From the NCBI RefSeq assembly GCF_964355755.1, contig NC_092670.1, positions 32,103,795 to 32,167,794 on the forward strand: a stretch of DNA of 64,000 nucleotides, given 5' to 3'. The translations under genes were made by a program, and so were the position numbers. The notes under the pieces were generated by a model. That model saw only the letters and a list, made by a program, of their open reading frames with translations, did no database searches and was not told the origin of the DNA. Shown one piece after another: positions 643 through 25,097 of this stretch. The stretch comes from Antedon mediterranea. Lineage: Eukaryota; Echinodermata; Crinoidea; Comatulida; Antedonidae. Within the stretch, counting starts at the first letter, position 1. The number at the start of each line of letters is the position of its first letter.

Positions 643-3600
643 CTAAGCCCAGAGAGTACAATATCAGGCATTGCCTTAGCCTTGTCATTGCCAATCTTGG
701 AAACACCCTCTTTTGCAAAGTGTATTACAATACCAGTAAGTGCCGGATCCTCATTCAAGTTCCAAAAATGTGGTATTACTTTCATCTCTTCTTGTTTTTG
801 TCGCTCTTGCTGGAGTTTTTCCTACAATTGAACACAACTTGCCATTCAGTATTCTATGATCGACTATATAATGTTTTTTTTGCTCATAAAATATGTGTAT
901 ATTAGCCTTTAGAATATGATATACAGTAGTGCAGTAGCATTGACTTCTGAGAAAATTCCTTTGTTTTTCAAAATCATCTCACAGGAAAAAATACAGCATT
1001 AACTTCTGCTAATTTCTGTTTCTATGGATTTTTTTATTACCATATTTACAGCATTGACTTCTGAAAGATGTTCTGTTCCTATGATTTTTTTTAACTTACC
1101 ATATTTGCAGCATTTACTTCTGAGAGTCTCTGTTCCCATGTCTTTTTAGCAACTTCCATTTCTTCTTCATTCTGTTTTAGCTGCATCAACAGATCCTGTT
1201 TCATCTGATCAACCTCTATAATTTGCAATAAAAGTGAATACATTTTTAGACCATTTTTATTAGTATTGCTGCAATAAATTTCAACATTTTAGGCTAAACT
1301 GATTGAACATGCTCATTTAAAAACAGATTTTAGGGGATTTTGCAATAAATATTTCATAAATAATAATGATATAAACAATAATTTTTTTTTTAATGACCAG
1401 TTCATGTACTTCCTTGGTGTTGCCACATATTATCATCATCTACATTCATTTTACGTTATTTAAATTAATCTCTGTCTACACTATCAAACTTTATGTGACA
1501 AAAAAATGTGATGTGCCCATATATGGACATGATGATGTGATATCACTACTATATTTGGGCATATCACTACCATATTTGGACACATCACATTTTTTTGTCA
1601 AACTAGTTTGATAGTGTAGACAGAGCTTTATGTCCGTCTGTGTAAATATCTTTTACGTCACTTCTAAAATCTTATCCTTTTCAATAATTCTTGTTGGTCT
1701 TTCAACGCTGTGAGACATCAGTAAAAAGCGCTTTATAAAAGTTTATTATTATTATTAATGATCATGTGCATAAAAATACAACCAATGAATAAGAACTGAG
1801 AGGAATAAAAATAAACATTTTCTTATACCTGCTTCAGTGAATCCTTGCTGTATTGTTTCTGTCGTACCCCCTCCGCCTTGCTTGCTCTTTTCAAGTGCTT
1901 CTATCAATCTGGCATTCTCCTCTTTCAATTCTCTTATCAATTTATCTGTAGGGCTTTCATTCACTATAGCCTTCGTTTTAATTGCTTTTGCTCGGTCCGC
2001 TATTAGAAAAAATAATTTAATTAGTACATTATTTTAAAAAATGTTACACATAGCTGGTAGAAAATATATAATATTGCAAATTTTAGATGATTGGGAAAAA
2101 GTGGGGCTGTAGATTGGTGGTTAATATGCTTGCTTTCCTATCCCTAAAATCCCGGGTTCAATCCTGCCCTAGTGCAGGGTTGTAACTGACGACTCTTTCA
2201 ACTCCACTTCCCAAGCCTCAAATGAGACTTAGTTTAAAAGCACGATACCTGTAAGTTATTAAATAGTTTATCCATCCTGTAATTGGTGAGTTACTCGCTG
2301 TTGGATGCATGTTTTTCTACTGTACTAAAACTCCCCAAAAACCACAACATTTTTTTAAAATATAAATAATAAATACATGAAATAGTATGAATTGTTTATA
2401 ATACCATAACGCAGTGTAGACATGGTTTCCTCAAAATTAATGTCAGCAGGACTAATAGCAGCAATCTATTAAAAAAATACAAAGCAATGGTTAAAAGTGT
2501 GTCTCATTTCTTAAAACATAGACAATCAATATAATACAAAATATTAAATTGAATCATAAAATGAAAAAAATAAATTAATCATAAAAAACATAATAACATA
2601 CCATTTTCAGTTATTAAATTAAAGAGAATAACTATTCTACTTCTTCTTTCTATTGAATGTTCACTTACCATAATAGTTTTACTGTTGCCTCCTAAAGCAT
2701 TTTTCAACAGCATTGTAAGCTTAGAATCCCTGTACGGAACTGTGAATGAAAAATTATTAGTCTCATTATAAGCAAATCAAGGTACTGTATTAACATTGAC
2801 TTACTAACGCACTTGTGACATCATGTAGGCGTGAGTTTCACTGAAGTCAATCAAAATTGAGATATGTTTGGTTGGAAATTATAGATTGTGTTTGGTAGAT
2901 TAATCTTCCTTTAAGTGTGGTTCCCACTAGAACGCAATGCAACATAACGCAGAGACGCATCGACGCAAAGTGCTGTATTGTGAAAACACAAGTGGGAACC
3001 ATGACACAAAAGTGCTGCAAACATCGCCACGGAAACAACGCAAGGCAAAAGAACACATGAAACATAGTACAGCGCATACTCAAAAGTACGCGAGGTGAAC
3101 TAGGTCAAAGTCTACGGCATGCTAGCGTTGACGCGCAACAAGCAGGTTTGATTTCACACAGGTGGGGGAAAACACAATTATTGGAAGAGCATTTGCTTAC
3201 GTGAGAACCAAGCTTAACAGATGTGTTACATTTTGTATTCAATATAAAGGAGTTTGTATGGGTTTGAAGAGTGTCGAATGTAGTAGTTTTCTGAGCACTA
3301 TAGAAAGATAATATCCTCAAGGTTAGTTACCTATAATTCCTTTCTTCTTGGCGCTCATATCTGCTAATGCCTTGATGCAATTTCCAAGTGATGAGAGGGA
3401 CTGGTTGATCATTGCTCCTTCCTTCAACCTATCCCCAGTTGCACCAGTACTATCAACCCTTTCACTGTAAAGTAAACACATACAAATAAACAGTATGAAT
3501 ACATAAACACTTAAGCAATAAATACCAACTTGTTGAGTGTGTGTAAAGCACTGCAGTGATTAAGGAGGTATCTACCTTCTAGTTAAATCCTAAAGATAAA

Positions 3601-6600
3601 TTTTGCATAATCATTACAACAAATTTCACACAGGTGGGCCTAAAATCTTATATATCTCCCCTCCCCTCTTTTGTGGGTTATAACACAAGTGCCAATATAT
3701 ATCATGACAGCCTTATATACAAGGGTGGCCTTAAATGGCAGAAAAGCTTAAACTCCAGTGTGAACATATAACACAGTGTGGCCTGTCCCATGGTGGGATT
3801 ATATTGTGGTTTTATACCACAGGGCAGCATTTAATATAAATAGTGGAATGATATTTACCTGCCAGCTAAATCCACAAGATTAATGATAGATGTTTTTGTC
3901 ATGTTTTTTCCAACATCATTCAAGCCTTTCTGAGCAAAGCTGATGGACACAATGGTATGAGCTCGACTAAAAGAGAAAAAAGCAACTTTATAATAATTAC
4001 GAAAAAAAAATTGTTTTAATACTAACAAATTCATTATTTTGTTGAAACCATTATTCAAATAACAGGGGAACATTGTGAGCACTATTCATTCAAGCAAATT
4101 GATTGGATGGAATCCAAGGATCTACACTATAAACATGGAGGAAACAATCCCAAAGACCAGTAGCAGAAGTAGTGATAAATAGGCTTGTCTAGATCATGAT
4201 GATTTTTTGCCGAATTTTGGAAAAAGAACTCTCCCTGTAAACATGACTCGATCTGCTCCACTATAAAGTAATTTAAAAATGTGGTTGGAAATTCTTTTCT
4301 TTTGACTTATATTTTAAAAAAATGTTTAAATTGGAGAAACACATACCTGCTTGTGGCATTCATTCTGGTAGATGCTATGGTTCTATTCCTTGTTCCTTCA
4401 TTGATTCTGCTATTTATATCTTCATAACTCTTTACAGGAACTTTAAGAAGGCCTTCAGCTAGAAGAAGAGGGTTGATAAAAAAAAATGATTTAATATGAT
4501 TGCCAAGCAACAGTATGGTCTAGTCTGGTAAGTGGCGAGCTCATAGAGCCTGCAACACAGTGGCGTAACAGCTATGATTGCTCACTGGCTAAACCCAGGG
4601 CTCTAGAGTTTAAAGGGCCCCAGAGCATGAGCAGTCCAATGCAACTACCCAGCGTTGTAAGGCCCTTAAAAGTGCTAAACCAGGCTTTGTCACCTGCATT
4701 AAGACTACTGCAGCAATAAATAAAATGGAGTATCAATTCAAGAAAACTGGTTTGATATGAATATATGTCTATGAGAGAAAGGCATGAGGACAGTGTATAA
4801 ACTGTATCTTTACCATAAAATCCTTTATCTGGATGCTGTCTAATTTTTATACCACCTTTGACCTTGAATGCTTTGGCGTTCAGCAGATCTCGTACTTGCT
4901 CATTGTAAATCTCCATCATACTTAAAGAAACCTGAAACAAAACAGCTTATTTAAACACATAGAAAACAACGCTTCTGATTTGTGACAATCAAGGTTAAAT
5001 TAAAGAAGTTGATATTGCAAATTAAATTGGTTGGACACTGGTCAATTGGTCAATCAAGCAGTGGTCAATCCCGAATAGTATTAAAGGTCTAGAATTTTTA
5101 ATTTCATTACTTATTATATTTTCATTAATTCTGGAAATTGTCACTCACCTAAAAATTATTCTGGTATTTTTCACATAATAAAGTATAGAAGCATGGGCTT
5201 ATTGATACAAAATGTTTTAATATATACAAAATTACCTGATATTCCTCTTCTTTAGACTTATCAGCTGTTTTCTTTTTCGACTCTATACCTTTGAATAATT
5301 CCTCACAGACAATAGGAACAATTCCTAAATTATAATTAAAGATAACAAGATAATCATATGAGGTGAGACAGTTGTTACTTCTTAATTATCCTTTTGTGTG
5401 CTTTTAAATGATCTTATAATATAACCATTTACAAATGTTTCATTAAACGGAATTCTGTTTATTGCTTTTATAAAACGGAAATAGTCCACAGTATTTCATT
5501 TCATTCAATTCATTCAGATCTTCATCAGCAAAGTGGTTTCCTCATTAACCATATGTGTTAATTTGAGCCTGTATCCACAAACCAGATGACATTTTAGTTA
5601 GCTGAAACAAGCTTTCTTTTATAATTACCTTTATTTGCGCCATATCCCACAATGGAGTATGACTTTCCACTGCCAGTCTGGCCATATGCAAACAAACAGC
5701 AATTATAACCCTTCCATGCATTATCAAGTACTCCCTGGCCAAGATTGTCAAACACAATTTGCTAAGAAATGAGAAAGAATATTTATATATAATATATATT
5801 TGCTTTCTCCAGTGAGATGTCTCCCTGTTTTCTCAAACACTTCATCTTCATTAGGTTATTAGATGGATATTAATTCTCAAGGTAAGGCAGCTTTGGGACC
5901 CAACAAAGTGTCCCTTTAATAGAGATATTCCCTTAATAGTGGTTTGCCATAGTTTGAATATATATTTCCCCTCCTTCATTTCACAGGAAAGTGTCCCCTT
6001 AATAATAATAATAATACATAATAGAAAAATAACGCTTAAAAAAGAACGACGTTTCGACTCCATCATGGGGTCATTATCAAGTCCAATAAATGAAATTAAA
6101 AAAAAAAAATAATAATAATAAGATTTATAGAGCGCACATATCCACAAAGTGCTCAAGACGTTTGTGAAAATCATGAGAAATGCAACCATGAAACTAAAAA
6201 CAACAAAACATTTTGCAAAAAGAAAAAAAAACAGAAAAAAGGAGACCAATCGAACCCATATCACTGCTTCTGTTTACCGGCAATTTAAGGTGATCAGACC
6301 TGCCAGTCCATTAATAGGTATATCCCCTTGATAGGGGTGTCCCCTTAATAGGGGTGTCCCCTGAATGGGGGTGTCCCCTTAATAGGGGTGTCCCCTTAAT
6401 AGGGGTGTCCCCTTAATAGGGGTGTCCCCTGAATGGGGGTGTCCCCTTAAAAGGGGTGTCCCCTTAATAGGGGTGTCCCCTGAATAGGGGTGTCCCCTGA
6501 ATAGGGGTGTCCCCTGAATGGGGGTGTCCCCTTAATAGGGGTGTCCCCTTAATAGGGGTGTCCCCTGAATGGGGGTGTCCCCTTAATAGGGGTGTCCCCT

Positions 6601-9600
6601 TAATAGGGGTGTCCCCTGAATGGGGGTGTCCCCTTAATAGGGGTGTCCCCTTAATAGGGGTGTCCCCTGAATAGGGGTGTCCCCTGAATGGGGGTGTCCC
6701 CTTAATAGGGGTGTCCCCTTAATAGGGGTGTCCCCTTAATAGGGGTGTCCCTTAATAGGGGTGTCCCCTTAATAGGGGTGTCCCCTTAATAGGAGTGTCC
6801 CCAAGAAAGGGTTCTACTGTATTGTATTTTAGATTTGAGAGAGAGAGTGCAATTTGTATTTTTGTTTTAAGTTCCAGCTATTGCATACACCCATACACAT
6901 GATATATCAAAAGACCGGAATTGACTGGAAAGTTACTAAATACAAATAAAACCTGCCCTGTAGCAAGTATTCTCCTAGTCAATTAATAATGATGGTGTTT
7001 GACAATCTATATATAAATTATGGTTAATTCTGACATAGGCGAGCACAATGCAAAAACTTCGGTACAAATCTCCGCCTTGGATGCCTACCTTATCTATCTC
7101 AGATGTACCGCAAAACGTAGACGCTATTTTTCCATATTTATATCTTAGGAAGATATTAGAAAGAGTTTTTTATCAAAATTTATGATTTCAACATTAGATT
7201 TTCAACTCAATTTCAATTCTTCGCGGGTCAAAGTAATTTCCGGGTTTACCTTGCAACAACCTGGTTTCAACTATTTTCTCTCTTTTATACACAAGGGAGC
7301 AGTTAAAAAAATAGATTTGACCTAAAGGTGACTGGAAACAGGCACTTTCCATCAATCAATACAGTGTCCCTTTGGAAGAAGGAAGAAAAAACCGATAGTA
7401 GGACTGGAGCTTAAGTTGCATAGCCATTTCAGTTTTTTGTTTATTTTAGGAACGGACCGCGCGTGTGTGAAGGTACAGTAGTTAAAAAATAAAAATTATA
7501 CTGCAAATTAATAAAAGATCAAATTAAATATACGCCATAAAGAATCGGAATATATTGTGGGAAATAGTATTATAAAATTACATAGGGAGATTTGATGATA
7601 AGACATATTGTTTAAAATCGAGTGAAATCCCGAGTAAAGTAAGCTGGCAGGAATAACTGTAGGCTATCTGTGTCCCGTTAGGACCGAGATGTCTGCCCAT
7701 GTTGCAAGCCGTAATGTTTTCTTTCTTGGGCCCACTCTGTCACGGCAGTTAGTTTCAAAAGATGTTTAAATTAAATAATGTATTAATAATTATTAGGATG
7801 GTATTTATTTGAATAAACGCCTCTCCAATAAAACATCACTTTGAATAATAATCATTATACTATTTGTAGTAGAATTCATCGCACTGTTATCTACAATTTA
7901 CCAAGCATTTGTTATTCTTTTTTACCACTTTTAATATCTATTAGAGGATTTCATTTGATTATAAATGTTACCATATTATTAAAACTAAAAAAATTAACAT
8001 ATATCCCTCGAATAAACACCTCCCTCAAATGAACTCCGCCTTCCCAAAGGGCCCTACCAAACAATACTTTAAAATGTTATTAATCATCTAAAACACTGTG
8101 AAACAGAGTAGTTTACTTTACGAATGTCAAGCATTTTCAATAATGATAACCGACAGAAAACGTACAAGGAGAACATTTTTATTATCCCGAGAAACATCGT
8201 CTACACTTCCTAGAGGGGGAGCGAGGGAAGGGAAGCGAGCTCACCCTCTAGTATCTAATAATTTGGACTAGCCAATTTAATAACGAGCTCAATTAAAGCA
8301 TGGTTACACATGCAGGGAATAATTTCGCCAGTGTAGCATAGCAAAAAGCTATACAAAACAACCTTTTTGCAACACATTTGTACATTTGTGTAGCAAAAAA
8401 TACAATACAAAACTATGTTTCTCGAATCAAAAATCAGTTTGATTGGCAATATTGCTAAACAGAATTTCGAAATGACATTTCTCTGACATGTACATCAGTC
8501 AAGCTTTCCATTGATGAAATTAGTTGGGATTGCTTCATTAACTCAAAAAGTAATTGCAACATTGAAAATAATTGCAATTAAAATATAGCTTAGAGCAGCC
8601 AAGATGCACGGATTGAGATTGATAAATGGTAGTCCAGTGTCAAATTGAAGTAGTAGATATAGATTTATATTTGTGAATTTAACTAATAATAGTATACAGT
8701 AACATATGGGCTGCTCAGATTTTATGCAATTTGCAGGGCAATTAAAATTGCACTACACAATTTATAAATGTAAACACAGTATAAACTATATACAGTCCTC
8801 CTAAGAAACGCACCACACAAATACATTACTGTAGTACCACACTAATGCACTTTAGTAGTTTGGTTCAGTTATTAGGAGAAACGTTGATTAGGAGGGTTAT
8901 GTTGTGGAAATATATATTATTATGGCATATTAAATGCATTAGCATGGCACTTAAGTTTTGGTACTATAGTATTATGTAGCACTGTGTGGTGGCTAGTAGG
9001 ACCCACAGTAAGGCACACACATGAATACAGAGCACTCAGCAGTGGTTGTCTCTGAGATCTGAGTTTTCTAGACACCCCTCAGTAGACTGACCAGTGGTGG
9101 CGCCAGCGGGGGGGCTACGGGGGCTCTAGCCCCCTCGTCGGGGAGCCTAGCCCCCCCGTCGGGGAACACGGGTACTTTTTGTCGGGGAATATAATATACA
9201 GTAAAAAACGTTCGCGTTCACTTCATGCTTCAGCGCCTAGAAAACCACGACGTTCCATTGACCGTGAGAGTACGTCAGATGGCTATTATGCACTTTTATG
9301 CATTCATTTATTGCCAGCGATCTAACTTACTACTAAACATTAGCTAGGTACGCACTTTTTTCTGGCGGTATCCCTTTGTACGAATCGTTCAACGTTGGGT
9401 CGAGACGCGTGATATCAAGTTCCATACAGGGACCAAAATGTGTAATGTAGTTATTTTCCAGGCGAAGTTTACCGACGGTTACCGAAGGGAACACGGGTAC
9501 TTTTTGTCGGGGAATATAATATACAGTAAAAAGCGTTCGCGTTCACTTCGTAGCTAGCTTCAGCGCCTAGAAAACCGCGACGTTTCATTGACCGTGAGAG

Positions 9601-12600
9601 TACAGTACGTCAGAGTGATATTATGCACTTTATATGCATTCATTATTGCCAGCGACCTAACTTACTACTAAACAATAGCTAGGTTCGCACTTGTCTGGCG
9701 GTATCCCTTTGTACGAATCGTTCAACGTTGGGTCGAGACGCGTAATATCATGTTCCATCCAGGGACCAAAATGTGTACTGTAGTTATTTTCCAGGCGAAG
9801 TTTACTGACGGTTACGTCGTGTACTGCGTCGACGTACGCTACACTACTACAGCAAAAACGAATTATGTTAATTGTTCGTATGTTCACCAATTTTTTAATT
9901 TACAAGTAACCTTCTGTACCGTGGGGCACCTAAAATAAATTTTTCATCCATTACTAAACAAAAAAACATGCCATTTTCATATTATAGCTAAAGTTATTAC
10001 ATTTTCAATGTCCTGTATGTCATGAATTTCTCACCACTCGGAAGTCCAGATAGTACGCACGCATACACTTGGGAGGAATAAACTTATTTCCCCGACTGAA
10101 AAAGCTCTACGCTTGCGTTTTTTAAGCCTCTAGGCCTGATGTTTCCAAAGTATAAAATGCAATTTTTTGAAGACCTGCAGCTCTAGTTTTAAACAGTTTC
10201 TTAGCTCAGCCCCAACAATAAAGCTGGTCATATTTCGAAGTACAAGAAGTGCATTTTCCGCGACCTAACATCTCTATTTTTCAAAAATTTCTTAGCTCAG
10301 TCACAACCATGATAGGGACTATTTTGTTTCATGTTTTGAAGTATATTAAGTCCAATTTCCGGGACCTCCAACTCTATTTTTCTAAATTTTCTTTGAACTT
10401 TTATTTTTTAAATTGAAAAATATGGATTGAAACAGTCATCGCGCATCGTTTTTTTGCACGCAGTATTTTATTTATGCATTATAAAAAATGGAAAAAATGG
10501 CTACCCTAAATCTGATTAAAATGACCTCAAATGACGCTAGAACGCGTTGCTTCCCCCACCGGGGGCCCTTGGCGGCCCCCTGGCCCCCAGCCTAGTGATG
10601 CTCGCATAGCCCCCTCGTCGGGGAATGTAGCCCCCGCGTCGGGAAGATCCTGGCGCCACCCCTGAGACTGACAAAATAAATACAAATAATGTTATACTGT
10701 ATACTGTATTAAATTATATATTGAAAAATGCTGTTTTTAAATTGCTCACTGAAAGTGGATTTTTTAGCTTACATTTTGTAATACTACTACTACTAGTATA
10801 TCACTGACATATACTCAATCAGATTCTCCTAACCTCACCTGATCAGCATATTTCTTGTCTTCAGCTGCCAAATAGCCATTCTCTAAAGTTTTAAAGCCAT
10901 CATGTGACCAGTATGAATAATCAAAGGTGAATCGTCTTGGTTCCTGAGTTGGATTGTGAGGGTCCTTGATCATGGTGGAATTGCCGTTCATATCGATGAT
11001 ACATGTTGCTTTACGATTCTTTTCTCGATCATTGTGATTTTGTTTTGTCAAGGAATGATTGCATCTTAACTCTAACAAATTGACTTAGCAGTATTATAAC
11101 AGTCCCTGAAAGAACTTTCTTTATTACACCATCAATATACCCTCTACACTACCGTAACTAAAAAATAATCATCATTTTGTCATATATTTTTTTTTTTTCA
11201 AATTTTGCTTGAATCTTTTACAAGATGAATAAATATAGTTTTTAAATGACATGAATATAGTTTTTAAATGATTAAAAATGGAATAATATTTTCATTTTCA
11301 AGAAATCAGAAAATAGGTCGATAAAGAGATGATAAAGAAAACACATAAAACTCGAAATGACCTTAATACCCTAAGATTTATGAGAAAAAATAAAAACAAA
11401 GGTAAACAAATAAAATATTGATCAAAATAAATAAACTTAGCTAGTATATGGTGCAAGTATACAAGATTACAGGGCCGTCTTCAAATTCTATTTATTTTAG
11501 GCCTATACTGTAATAATATTCTTCTAACTAACTAAAAACTAGCCACTACTATAGTACTAGGCCTAGACAATAATTATAATATAAGTTAATAAGGTCTGGC
11601 CTACCTAGAGGCTAGGCCCAGGGCTAGGCCTAGATAGTCAAGGCCAGCTACTAGTACTAGCTAGGCCTAGTATAGTTAGGCTATTGATTACTAGTATTAG
11701 GCCTAGCCTACTTTATACTTATATAGTATACTAGAGGTCCGAGAATAGTAGGCCTACTTCTAAGTAACGGCCCTTTTTTTAAAGCTAGCTAGGCCTGGCC
11801 TAGTTTAGGCCTAGGATAAAATAATAATGGACTAGCCTAGTCTCTAGGGATTAGGCCAAGTTGAGCCGCCACCAGAAAAACGTTATTTTTTATGGAACGC
11901 CAAATGCTAACTTTCGCCGGTGCTCGTTCAATTTATATTAGGGATCGATGTACATTCAAAAGTTTATATATCATGGTTTTTAGTATATATATTATTAAAT
12001 ATTATAATTAAAGAAATAATTATGAAAGTCTGGCTTGTAGATTCCAAAATATAAAACATCACCGAAAGTGATCGTTTTTAGCCAAAAATGACGTAAACAA
12101 CTAGGTAGGCTTACTCCATTTTTCGGTAAAATAATTACATAAAATCACGTTTTTTAGTAAAATATTTTGTGTATTAACATTGTAAAATTCAATAAAATAT
12201 GATATTAAAAGATTAGTAAATAAAAAATAATATTTATTTAACCTCATTCGAAGAATGTTAATACTCTATTAATTAGTCCTGAGAGAGGACAACGTGACTT
12301 TACGTAATAGGCCTACACGCGGCGATAAAAATTACGCCGTGGTTAGGATTCCGGCACCGGAACTCAACTGCCCACCGTTAGGGAATCCGACACGCTATTG
12401 CGCATGCCCAGAGCTCTGGGAAGTGAATTATAGCTTGCACCAAAGTGCCACACCACGGAGAGTCGGAGTGTTATAGGGATTTACTGTAGCCTAGATAGTC
12501 GTTGCGCGAGCGAGAGAGCGATGGATGAAACTTGGCCAATGCCATACATGAATTAATAATTAAAATATGACTACGCCACGCGTTAAAATAATTATAATGA

Positions 12601-14990
12601 TATTAATAAGTATCAGTATTTATCTATCTAAGAATCGTAATGCAGTTTTTAGCGTTGCGACCCTGACTGTCTTCCCGAACAGTTTTTTCACATCCACGCG
12701 GTGGCTGCCGTCAACAAAATCAACTTGTGATTGCATGTTGTATGTACAGTATATTATAATGCGTTATGAAAAATCATAAAACTAGTCATGTAGGCTAATT
12801 ATATAATTCATATGATATGAATTTTATATATGAATGAAGCAAGCACTTTTTAATTACAAAATAAATACTATAGGCCCACTGGTCACGTAGTCTAACTGGT
12901 AGCCCTAGCCTAGATTATATTAGTGCAGGGGTGGCGCCAGGATCTTGCCGACACGGGGGCTACATTCCCCGACGAGGGGGCTATGCAAGCGAAGCGAGCA
13001 TCACCAGGGGGGCCGCCAAGGGCCCCCGGTGGGGGTCCAGGGGGCGAAGCCCCCGGAAGCAACGCGTTCTAGCGTCATTTGAGGTCATTTTAATCAGATT
13101 TAGGGTAGCCATTTTTTCCATTTTTTATAATGCATAAATAAAATACTGCGTGCAAAAAAACGATGCGCGATGACTGTTTCAATCCATATTTTTCAATTTA
13201 AAAAATAAAATTTCAAAGAAAATTTAGAAAAATAGAGTTGGAGGTCCCGGAAATTGGACTTATTATACTTTAAAACATGAAACAAAATATATAAGTCCCT
13301 ATCATGGTTGTGACTGAGCTAAGAGATGTTAGGTCCCGGAAAATGCACTTCTTGTACTTCGAAATATAACCAGCTTTATTGTTGGGGCTGAGCTAAGAAA
13401 CTGTTTAAAACTAGAGCTGCAGGTCTTCAAAAAATTGCATTTTATACTTTGGAAACATCAGGCCTAGAGGCTTAAAAAACGCAAGCGTAGACCTTTTTCA
13501 GTCGGGGAAATAAGTTTATTCCTCCCAAGTGTATGCGTGCGTACCATCTGGACTTCCGAGTGGTGAGAAATTAATGACATACAGGACATTGAAAATGTAA
13601 TAACTTAGCTATAATAAGTTGTTGGCTAAGCGAAAATGGCATGTTTTTTTGTTTAGTAATGGATGAAAAATTTATTTTAGGTGCCCCACGGTACAGAGAA
13701 GGTTACTTGTAAATTAAAAAATTGGTGAACATACGAACAATTAACATAATTCGTTTTTGCTGCTGTAGTGTAGCGTACGTCGACGCAGTACACGACGTAA
13801 CCGTCGTCAGTAAACTCCGCCTGGAAAATAACTACAGTACACATTTTGGTCCCTGGATGGAACATGATATCACGCGTCTCGACCCAACGTTGAACGATTC
13901 GTACAAAGAGATACCGACAGACAAGTGCGAACCTAGCTATTGTTTAGTAGTAAGTTAGATCGCTGGCAATAATGAATGCATATAAAGTGCATAATATCAC
14001 TCTGAGACGTACTCTCACGGTCAATGAAACGTCGCGGTTTTCTAGGCGCTGAAGCTAGCTACGAAGTGAACGCGAACGCTTTTTACTGTATATTATATTC
14101 CCCGACAAAAAGTACCCGTGTTCCCTTCGGTAACCGCCGGTAAACTTCGCCTGGAAAATAACTACATTACACATTTTGGTCCCGGGATGGAACTTGATAT
14201 CACGCGTGTCGACCCAACGTTGAACGATTCGTACAAAGGGATACCGCCAGACAAGTGCGTACCTAGCTAATGTTTAGTAGTAAGTTAGATCGCTGGCAAT
14301 AAATGAATGCATAAAAGTGCATAATAGCCCTCTGACGTACTCTCACGGTCAATGGAACGTCGTGGTTTTCTAGGCGCTGAAGCTATATGAAGTGAACGCG
14401 AACATTTTTTACTGTATATTATATTCCCCGACAAAAAGTACCCGTGTTCCCCGACGGGGGGGCTAGGCTCCCCGACGAGGGGGGCTAGAGCCCCCGTAGC
14501 CCCCCCGCTGGCGCCACCACTGTATTAGTGGATCCCATATTAGAAGGCATCTAGGCTAGTTCGCCGTGTGGTGTGGCGCAGCTTCCAGCTATGAAATAAT
14601 CCATCGCTGTTGATAAGTATAGAGTCGCCGATTACCTCGCTCTGGGCATGCGCAATAGCGTGTCGGAATCCCTAACGCTGGGCAGTTGAGTTCCGGTGCC
14701 GGAATCCTAACCACGGCGTAAAAATTATGAGTGCACTGAATTTTTTCCTCGAAAGATTAAAAACAATTACATTATTAAATATTACTACTTTCCTTTAGCT
14801 AGGCTAACTAGTAGAGGACTAGCCTAGGCCCTAGTAGGCCTAGGCCTAGCTAGCTAGCTAGCCTAATTACTAGCTAGGCCCACCCAGCAGGGCCGTAATA
14901 GGTTATCCCCGCTAGCTAGGCCTAGGTATTTTTCAATTAAAAGGATATGAATGGCCGAACTCTAACAGCAACTTTGACGTTTTCGTCCAT
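643..14990 (-). CDS. Kinesin-3 family motor protein, KIF28-like, 5' part (partial at left edge)
   Basis: Microtubule motor; kinesin-3 proteins move vesicles or organelles toward microtubule plus ends. Coding exons in order: 14949-14990, 10839-11033, 5629-5761, 5236-5324, 4814-4931, 4347-4458, 3859-3966, 3331-3464, 2669-2739, 2405-2465, 1829-1999, 1100-1215, 643-821. They give 509 residues and the donor at 641-642 shows the gene continues off the window. Seen: start [20 protein letters not shown]-loop GQTGSGKS (residues 106-113), switch I-like NATSSRAHT, switch II DLAGSER (262-268), [36 protein letters not shown] and neck helix [12 protein letters not shown]. After a short coiled coil, residues from about 465 ([10 protein letters not shown], then DIVLSGL) begin an FHA domain, which places it in kinesin-3. 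The KIF28 assignment is from memory of the neck sequence and is less sure. The start codon is the only ATG before the KVAVRVRPF strand. Exon 1 to 2 is spliced by a U12-type intron. Confidence 0.93.
1470..1625. mobile_element. Fold-back MITE, family B (CTGTCTACACTATCAAAC termini)
   Basis: The ends are inverted copies of CTCTGTCTACACTATCAAAC, with internal inverted blocks around TGTGATGTGCCCATATATGG and the centre AGTGATATGATATCAC-like words. Further copies lie at 17487-17597, 37499-37633, 38523-38661 and 52131-52290. There is no coding capacity. It lies in an intron of the kinesin gene. Confidence 0.8.
2104..2310 (+). mobile_element. tRNA-derived SINE
   Basis: GGGCTGTAGATTGGTGG resembles a pol III A box, and CCGGGTTCAATCC about 45 bp further is a good B box, as in a tRNA head. 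A non-tRNA body ending near a T/A-rich stretch follows. It is intronic to the kinesin gene. The family is not identified and the borders are approximate. Confidence 0.6.
2914..3004. mobile_element. Family A fold-back MITE, diverged copy
   Basis: GTGGTTCCCACTAGAACGCA at the left and AAGTGGGAACCATG at the right are inverted versions of the family A terminus seen in cleaner copies at 22329-22497 and 60473-60830. It is intronic to the kinesin gene. Confidence 0.55.
6311..6802. repeat. 17-bp minisatellite (TTAATAGGGGTGTCCCC), about 29 units
   Basis: The unit is TTAATAGGGGTGTCCCC with a common variant GAATGGGGG in place of TAATAGGGG; one unit lacks a C. The unit is itself partly palindromic (GGGG/CCCC). 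Degenerate related words (GTGTCCCTTTAATAG) occur upstream at 5908-5925 and in the 69-bp array at 43697-44125. It lies in kinesin intron 2. Confidence 0.95.
9092..10664 (+). mobile_element. Non-autonomous hAT-type element, copy 1, with 8-bp TSD
   Basis: The element starts CAGTGGTGGCGCCAG and ends CTGGCGCCACCCCTG, imperfect terminal inverted repeats of hAT style. It is flanked by the 8-bp duplication AGACTGAC (9084-9091 and 10665-10672). Inside, a segment beginning AACACGGGTACTTTTT is duplicated in tandem (near 9165 and 9490, offset about 325 bp). Short open frames exist but none looks like a transposase. It lies in kinesin intron 2, 175 bp downstream of exon 2. It is near-identical, inverted, to 12926-14522. 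Confidence 0.9.
11500..11860. other. CTAG / AGGCCTAG-rich island
   Basis: Very dense in CTAG, GGCCTA and TAGGCC words that are themselves palindromic, without a fixed period. Similar islands lie at 14810-14935, 40600-41080 and 47160-47345. No gene is visible in it. It lies in kinesin intron 1. Confidence 0.7.
12305..12480 (+). repeat. Left arm of an inverted repeat (pairs with 14560-14735)
   Basis: The words ATTACGCCGTGGTTAGGATT, CCGGCACCGGAACTCAACTG and CGACACGCTATTGCGCATGC recur in reverse complement at 14640-14735. The outer parts of the arms are more diverged. hAT copy 2 lies between the arms, so the repeat may be an older element split by that insertion. Confidence 0.75.
12926..14522 (-). 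mobile_element. Non-autonomous hAT-type element, copy 2 (inverted), with 8-bp TSD
   Basis: It starts CAGGGGTGGCGCCAG and ends CTGGCGCCACCACTG, with perfect 8-bp duplication TATTAGTG at 12918-12925 and 14523-14530. Its sequence is the reverse complement of copy 1 with scattered differences, including the same internal tandem duplication. No transposase is visible. It lies in the U12-type intron 1 of the kinesin gene. Confidence 0.9.
14560..14735 (-). repeat. Right arm of the inverted repeat (pairs with 12305-12480)
   Basis: Reverse complement of the arm at 12305-12480; CATGCGCAATAGCGTGTCGG and CCTAACCACGGCGTAA are seen here. It lies about 250 bp downstream of the kinesin start codon, inside the U12-type intron. 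Confidence 0.75.
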
Positions 14991-22939: not shown

Positions 22940-25097
22940 CTGTTCCGCCGTACCACGCCGAGAGTGTTAAAGAGTTGCTATCCAATCGAGTTTGAACAAT
23001 ACCATGAAAGCCCCAGTGGTCTAATGGTTAGGGCAACTGCATATCAAGCAGACGGTCCGAGTTCGAGTCTCGGTTGGGGCGACTTTTTCTCATTCTCACA
23101 GATTTCCTCATCTTTATCGTTTCAAATTAATTAATTAAATTTCAGTATATCACCGGGCGGTTTAGAATTAATGTTCTTTGCCTACTGTGTTTATATATAT
23201 AAAATTATCTCTTCGGAGATCCCGCCTCGTGAATAAAATACTGTAAGATGAGGGCGTATCAATTTGATCTCTGTTGCGCGTGTGTACAACTGAGGACTAG
23301 TGCTGTTCCGCCGTACCACGCCGAGAGTGTTAAAGAGTCACTATCCAATCGAGTTTGAACAATACCATGAAAGCCCCAGTGGTCTAATGGTTAGGGCAAC
23401 TGCATATCAAGCAGACGGTCCGAGTTCGAGACTCGGTTGGGGCGACTTTTTCTCATTCTCACAGATTTCCTCATCTTTATCGGTTCAAATTAATTAATTA
23501 AATTTCAGTATATCACCGGGCGGTTTAGAATTAATGTTCTTTGCCTACTGTGTTTATATATATATATATATATAAACACAGCAGACAAAGTATATATATA
23601 TATATATATATAGGGTAGGCTGTTTAGTAGCAGATAGCAACTTGTTTTGAGCAGTAATAAAGCATAGAAGGGCAGGAAGAACAGGGAACTCTGAAACAAT
23701 TTGGGGAGTAGAAAGATTCCAAATGAAATGGAAGCTGAAGTATCCATTGATTGATTACATTGATGATTATGACCTCATAAATGGTTTTATGATTTTAACA
23801 ATTTGTCGAGAGTACAGGAAGCATGGCGATCAAAACTCCAATTTCTTAAATGGACCAAACATTTGGTGAAATTTTGCGATGAGCAGTTTCTCTTACCTAG
23901 ACAACTTAGTGTCAGGCCGATCGGGTGGGTCACCGATTCCAACACGACGATTTAGTTTGGACATCATAAGATCTGACTCATCACTAGCATACTATTGAAA
24001 CCGAAAAAAATATATTAATTACAACAATAATTGAAACCAACAATTGGTGCAGCTAAACGTCATGAGATATCTATCAATATGTAATTATTTTCAATTGTAC
24101 ATTATGACATAAATCGGTTTCGTTTTACGCAGAACTAACTGTGTCACCGCATGTCATCGTCACAATATCAACAATAATGTAAATATATCACTTACCAACA
24201 GTAAACCAATGGTTTTATTTGTAGGCGTCCCAAAACGTTCTTTCTTGTCCCAAAGACGACCTATGTCTTCTAGAGGTTGTAACCGCCGTAAAAAGCTGTC
24301 CTGTTCATTCAGCGATAACCACCAGCCTAAAAAATGTCAAATCAGGAGAAGTAACAAATGATTCTTATTTTTCTTCGTCATATTTATCTTCATTGTCATC
24401 AACATCCCGTTTTAATAATTTAAACTGTTATTATTAGTATATCATGATTGTTATAATTTTCTTTCCATTGTCATTCGGCGTCGTCTTTACCTTCATCGTC
24501 GTGGTGAACATTTATATATATTATAATACAAAGTAGCATGAGTTGGTAAATGTCATCATCATCACTATTATCATCATCTTCTTATTCCATCTAAATAGTC
24601 CTAGTGTAAAATGACCATCTTCTTTCAACATCAACATGTACTAATATAAACATCATTCTCTCTCCCTTTTCATATACACAAATCACACTTAATTGTGTAT
24701 AAATGATAGTTACATATTATAGTAATATATATTATTATTATTGTTTAATTTACTAAGTTAAAAAAACTTTTTACCGTCGAAACAGTGGACTGGATAATTG
24801 CAGAGTAAACCGCCATCTACGTAAATATCAGTTGTTCCATAGTTGAAATATTTTACGGAACCAAATAAACCTACAAGAATATATATTTTATAATTTATTT
24901 AAAATTAAATAGTTTTAATAATTGATTGAAATTGATTGATTGAAATATATATTTATACTGGGTAACCTCTTCAGTCAAAGACTGGTCTCCCAGAGGGCCC
25001 AGTTGGTGATCAGTACTAATACACCGGGGTAACCCCCTACTCGTCTCGAAAGATGTACTAGGTTCTTTAAAATGCACACGAGCTAGTTGTGTACACT

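Follow-up and report, generated by a model that had tools for sequence, protein, structure and literature searches.

The window, that is, the whole 64-kb stretch of Antedon mediterranea DNA analysed here, carries on its minus strand a kinesin gene whose motor was modelled in 11 exons. Only intron 1 has AT-AC ends; introns 2 to 10 are all GT-AG. The features that bear on this intron, with their window coordinates, are as follows.

14949..14990, minus strand: exon 1, coding, with the ATG at 14990 and an in-frame stop codon 7 codons upstream
11034..14948, minus strand: intron 1, a candidate U12-type AT-AC intron, phase 0, 3,915 nt (sequence re-derived by script)
14940..14948, minus strand: putative U12-type 5' splice site ATATCCTTT, 9/9 to RTATCCTTT
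12325..14728, minus strand: inverted-repeat insert in intron 1, with arms at 12325-12414 and 14639-14728 that are 94% complementary
11047..11055, minus strand: putative U12-type branch site TTCCTTGAC, 9/9 to TTCCTTRAC
11034..11035, minus strand: 3' splice site AC, read from the sequence
10839..11033, minus strand: exon 2, which opens with NDREKNRK and runs to KKYADQ
1829..5761, minus strand: exons 3-11 of the gene model, covering motor and neck region, together with the intervening introns 3-10

A pair of KLP-6-type kinesin genes

Joining exon 1 to exon 2 produces VRVRPFNDRE, the first strand of the kinesin motor, and the spliced motor matches the Pfam Kinesin profile at 349.8 bits over residues 10-361, starting from profile position 1. 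Further downstream, an exon at 639-821 of the window looks FHA-like by eye; Pfam returned no family for that exon. The first-pass annotation had correctly called the gene a kinesin-3; a narrower assignment, to the KLP-6 type, is possible given that the closest solved structure to the motor is 7wrg_A (502.7 bits; 62.8% identity, 240/382 aligned residues), ahead of KIF1A at 390.9 bits. We take 7wrg_A, a chain of 960 residues whose record reads only 'Kinesin-like protein', to be the kinesin-3 KLP-6 of C. elegans; the full-length KLP-6 structure is reportedly the subject of one paper (PMC9314371), to which 7wrg_A presumably belongs. An insertion, WSHDGF...NGYL, is common to 7wrg_A and the window motor and is missing from KIF1A. 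On this sequence evidence, the gene is assigned to the KLP-6 type of kinesin-3. KIF28 is presumably the vertebrate name for the KLP-6-type gene and is treated here as a candidate for orthology only; a passage of one paper terms KLP-6 invertebrate specific (PMC10945585).

A second KLP-6-type gene lies on another contig, C2, which is another chromosome. Its motor scores 530 bits against 7wrg_A (64.0% identity, 244/381) and 429.5 bits against the next structure, and it is 70.0% identical to the window motor (271/387 aligned residues). About 10 kb downstream of the motor exons of this paralogue there is an NLR-like gene (L022, G000:C2 near 3316500-3319000), seen by eye as a long open frame in which GGIGKTT and leucine-rich-repeat-like stretches occur.

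Splice signals of intron 1 and the join to exon 2

Exon 1, on the minus strand, runs to 14949, after which comes ATATCCTTTTAATTG. The intron opens with the ten bases ATATCCTTTT and ends in ...TTCCTTGACAAAACAAAATCAC, after which exon 2 begins; the branch A is followed by 14 nt, and a polypyrimidine tract is not evident. All of the coordinates given by the first-pass annotation were right when re-derived by script, including the start ATATCCTTTT, the AC end, the join 14949|11033 and a perfect branch site with its A 14 nt before the end. Its assignment of the intron to the U12-type AT-AC class is likewise supported by the 9/9 matches at both sites, the short branch-to-end distance and the lack of an evident polypyrimidine tract, and further by minor-spliceosome snRNA genes of all four kinds in the genome and by the same intron in the paralogue. 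The strings used for scoring, RTATCCTTT and TTCCTTRAC, are the consensus sequences of this class. When the 17 introns modelled in the two genes were scored against them, both first introns matched the 5' splice site at 9/9, and the other 15, all GT-AG, at 3-6/9; the best branch-site match was 9/9 in intron 1 of the window gene, 7/9 in the first intron of the paralogue and 4-6/9 in the remaining 15.

Predicted duplex energies were less discriminating. With U12, the AT-AC introns gave -7.1 and -6.9 and the 15 GT-AG introns -3.6 to -9.0, and two GT-AG introns out-pair both AT-AC introns, so that U12 energy does not separate the classes. With U11, both AT-AC introns gave -5.4, two GT-AG introns -5.2 and -4.9, and the other 13 were at -3.5 or weaker, which is a separation only in part.

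Neither 9-mer is rare in 64 kb: on both strands, ATATCCTTT was found twice (1.39 expected) and TTCCTTRAC twice (1.13 expected). The evidence therefore resides in the placement of the two 9-mers at exon edges and not in their rarity. On the minus strand, each is present in a single copy in the window, ATATCCTTT at the precise point where VRVRPF ends, and TTCCTTRAC (11055-11047) just before the first NDRE codon. Chance occurrence of the motifs was rejected as an explanation, since motifs that are common in 64 kb would not be expected at both exact exon edges. Searched for (R/S)-P-(F/L/I/M) followed by ATATCCTT, the 354-Mb genome gave 11 matches, compared with 5 for a reversed-pattern control, and 2 of the 11, in the window gene and its paralogue, come after VRVRPF. 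Elsewhere in the window, a second U12-type intron was considered and rejected, the plus-strand TTCCTTAAC (26792) being upstream of ATATCCTTT (48264) and in an open frame; by eye, no coding exon edge was seen at TTCCTTAAC 26792, ATATCCTTT 48264 or GTATCCTTT 33944.

Could exon 2 instead be joined by a GT-AG intron to an unseen 5' exon, or contain the translation start itself, leaving the ATG at 14990 and its VRVRPF unused? In-frame AGs are present where exon 2 starts and ahead of that point, and cDNA alone would leave the join ambiguous by one base each way, with AT-AC ends arising only from the 14949|11033 placement. Pairing GT/GC donors at 14987-14880 with AG acceptors at 11120-10986 yielded 11 open in-frame joins, all of which lose VRVRPFNDRE; the earlier statement that only this join yields the motif thus holds among the GT/GC-AG alternatives near these exons. 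Moreover, there is no AG at the conserved start of exon 2, and the paralogue has conserved not only the intron but also exon 1 with its ATG. A start inside exon 2, a possibility that the first-pass annotation had itself raised, is unlikely given the conserved exon 1 and a Pfam match that begins with position 1 of the profile at residue 10 of the protein. Overall, an unseen 5' exon or an internal start is considered very improbable.

Distribution of the AT-AC intron among kinesin genes

In the paralogue, exon 1 is followed by ATATCCTTTTTG ... AAATCCTTAATAATTCACAC and then by NSREKARS. Its first intron (ATATCC...CAC, 523 nt) is also phase 0, interrupts the same codon boundary (join C2:3303049|3303573) and shares ATATCCTTTT with the window gene; its branch site, ATCCTTAAT (7/9, 10 nt), is weaker than that of the window gene. 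The other six introns modelled in the paralogue are all GT-AG. Introns 4, 6 and 9 of the window gene have no counterpart in the paralogue, whereas the AT-AC intron is present in both.

A KIF1A N-terminal query of the genome returned nine matches. Two of these, the window gene and its paralogue, begin at the end of the motif (query residue 10), six (the KIF1-like L011, and L013-L017) are uninterrupted at the F|N boundary, and the remaining one (L012) maps further downstream. In this genome, an AT-AC intron at VRVRPF|N is absent from the genes that resemble KIF1, KIF13 and KIF14, the labels KIF13-like (L053) and KIF14-like (L038) being provisional ones based on similarity. Each of the latter two has a GT-AG intron near F|N, so that VRVRPF has three distinct introns in a span of 10 nt: at 0 in the KLP-6-type, +8 nt in the KIF14-like and +10 nt in the KIF13-like genes (L053, L038, L009 and window 14949). 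Because their positions differ and both are GT-AG, the KIF13- and KIF14-like introns were not accepted as the same intron. A pattern scan of the genome contigs for relatives of exon 2 gave 56 pattern matches, none of which was confirmed.

Of the kinesins seen in this genome, the KLP-6-type pair is thus the one that the AT-AC intron marks, and the intron most likely predates the duplication that gave rise to the pair. An independent origin in each gene, by gain or by conversion to AT-AC, would accord with the differing branch sites, the differing intron lengths (3,915 and 523 nt) and the window introns unmatched in the paralogue. That the two introns share codon boundary, phase and the ten bases ATATCCTTTT at the 5' end speaks against it, and for the same rare class to be gained twice at one base would be improbable; we regard separate origins as highly unlikely and favor a single intron inherited by both copies. 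In a quartet tree of the two genes, 7wrg_A and KIF1A, the split was supported by 50% of 200 bootstraps, with 8, 7 and 5 informative sites for the three possible splits (8 grouping the window gene with KLP-6, 7 grouping the two paralogues), which does not place the duplication before or after the split from nematodes.

Probable minor-spliceosome splicing and its context

A search of the genome with Rfam profiles returned U12 (125.7 bits), U4atac (97.6 bits) and U6atac (136.6 bits), all above gathering scores, and two U11 genes (88.6 and 82.9 bits) that also exceed them; a second U6atac match, at 33.7 bits, is barely above the cut-off of 33. None of the four had a match in 14 control genomes; since those named are bacteria and archaea, this control is weak. 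GAGTAAGGAAAA is preserved in the U12 gene, and AAAAAGGGCTTT opens both U11 genes; we take these to be the segments through which U12 pairs with the branch site and U11 with the 5' splice site. The two U11 genes (L019, L020) are clearly different from each other and lie on different contigs, and the 5' end is intact in both.

Taken together, these data make it highly probable that intron 1 of this KLP-6-type kinesin-3 is a genuine AT-AC intron of the U12-dependent kind; it most likely antedates the duplication, with AT-AC retained in both copies. From the sequence signals, gene models, paralogue and snRNA genes, we infer the following course of splicing. U11 would pair with UAUCCUU at the 5' end of intron 1 and U12 with UUCCUUGAC near its 3' end; U4atac/U6atac-U5 would then join, and catalysis by U12/U6atac with U5 would allow the minor spliceosome to ligate the two exons and so complete the initial strand of the motor domain. 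Beyond exon 1, the frame runs for three codons before a stop (ISF*), and a transcript that retained intron 1 would therefore encode a 17-residue peptide and no motor. Retention of intron 1 could in this way silence the gene, and may offer a means of regulating it. Against the assignment count the weaker branch site of the paralogue, the poorly discriminating duplex energies and two properties of the intron: phase 0 is described as under-represented in U12-type introns in part of one study (PMC7367187), and intron 1 is in phase 0; and its branch-to-end distance of 14 nt is just outside the optimum of 11-13 nt given in a passage of another (PMC3584512). Excision of the AT-AC intron by the major spliceosome, for which U2-type AT-AC introns such as SCN4A intron 21 provide a precedent, is exceedingly improbable, as those described for sodium channel genes in the relevant passage have G at +5 (PMC2831892) whereas intron 1 has C there (ATATCC), its U12 branch site is complete and a polypyrimidine tract is not apparent.

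Intron 1 is an ordinary, well-supported further case of a known intron class. In the window gene it has the ATATCCTTT 5' site and, close to its 3' end, a TTCCTTRAC branch site, and it is the one minor intron in a gene model whose other introns are GT-AG. Animal U12-type AT-AC introns tabulated in rows for PHB2, STX6, SLC9A7 and KCMF1 (PMC2831892) have the same AT-AC ends and U12 class, and differ in the host gene, which is here a KLP-6-type kinesin. Inheritance through duplication, as is likely here, is also described in part of a study of families rich in minor introns (voltage-gated channels, MAPK, E2F; PMC6865273), whereas the present case comprises two members only, in one genome. The share of human minor introns that are AT-AC is put at ~22% (PMC6717393) or ~26% (PMC10639083) in passages of two papers. 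The word 'kinesin' is absent from the main texts of five minor-intron papers (PMC10639083, PMC6865273, PMC7367187, PMC6717393, PMC2831892), and three others that contain both kinesin and U12-type or AT-AC terms mention kinesin in unrelated places (PMC4394429, PMC13115098, PMC10161547). Among the open-access matches listed, judged by title and the start of the abstract, there was no report of a minor intron in KLP-6/KIF28 or another kinesin-3 gene, and supplementary tables may include one.

With this intron, a branch of kinesin-3 joins the genes that would need the minor spliceosome, and the duplicate pair would represent a case in which an AT-AC intron was kept through duplication while neighbouring introns came or went. 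Annotation limited to GT-AG introns would be expected to miss the opening strand of both motor domains. To the best of our knowledge, C. elegans does not have a minor spliceosome, and its KLP-6 (7wrg_A), unlike the window gene, therefore cannot carry this intron as such. C. elegans KLP-6 is stated to transport the polycystin complex in male cilia (PMC10945585), and loss of a minor-spliceosome factor is stated to lead to mis-splicing of ciliary genes (PMC13216214), in passages of the two papers; because of this ciliary cargo and this ciliary mis-splicing, a link between the minor spliceosome and KLP-6 is testable. More speculatively, and with somewhat less than even confidence, the AT-AC intron at VRVRPF|N may be an ancestral mark of the KLP-6 branch that predates the protostome/deuterostome split and is kept wherever the minor spliceosome survives, placing a ciliary motor under minor-spliceosome control.

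The arms of the insert in intron 1 are 90 nt each and 2,224 nt apart, and a 1,620-bp part of it recurs in reverse orientation in intron 2 (about 9092-10664), at 93.3% identity. The insert is probably a transposable element that lengthened the intron, and a repeat family common to introns 1 and 2 probably explains why both are long. Intron 2 also contains a tandem repeat (window 6379-6718) whose minus strand reads as a repeated peptide. Two tRNA genes lie on the plus strand of the window at 23010-23081 and 23373-23444, 291 bases apart.
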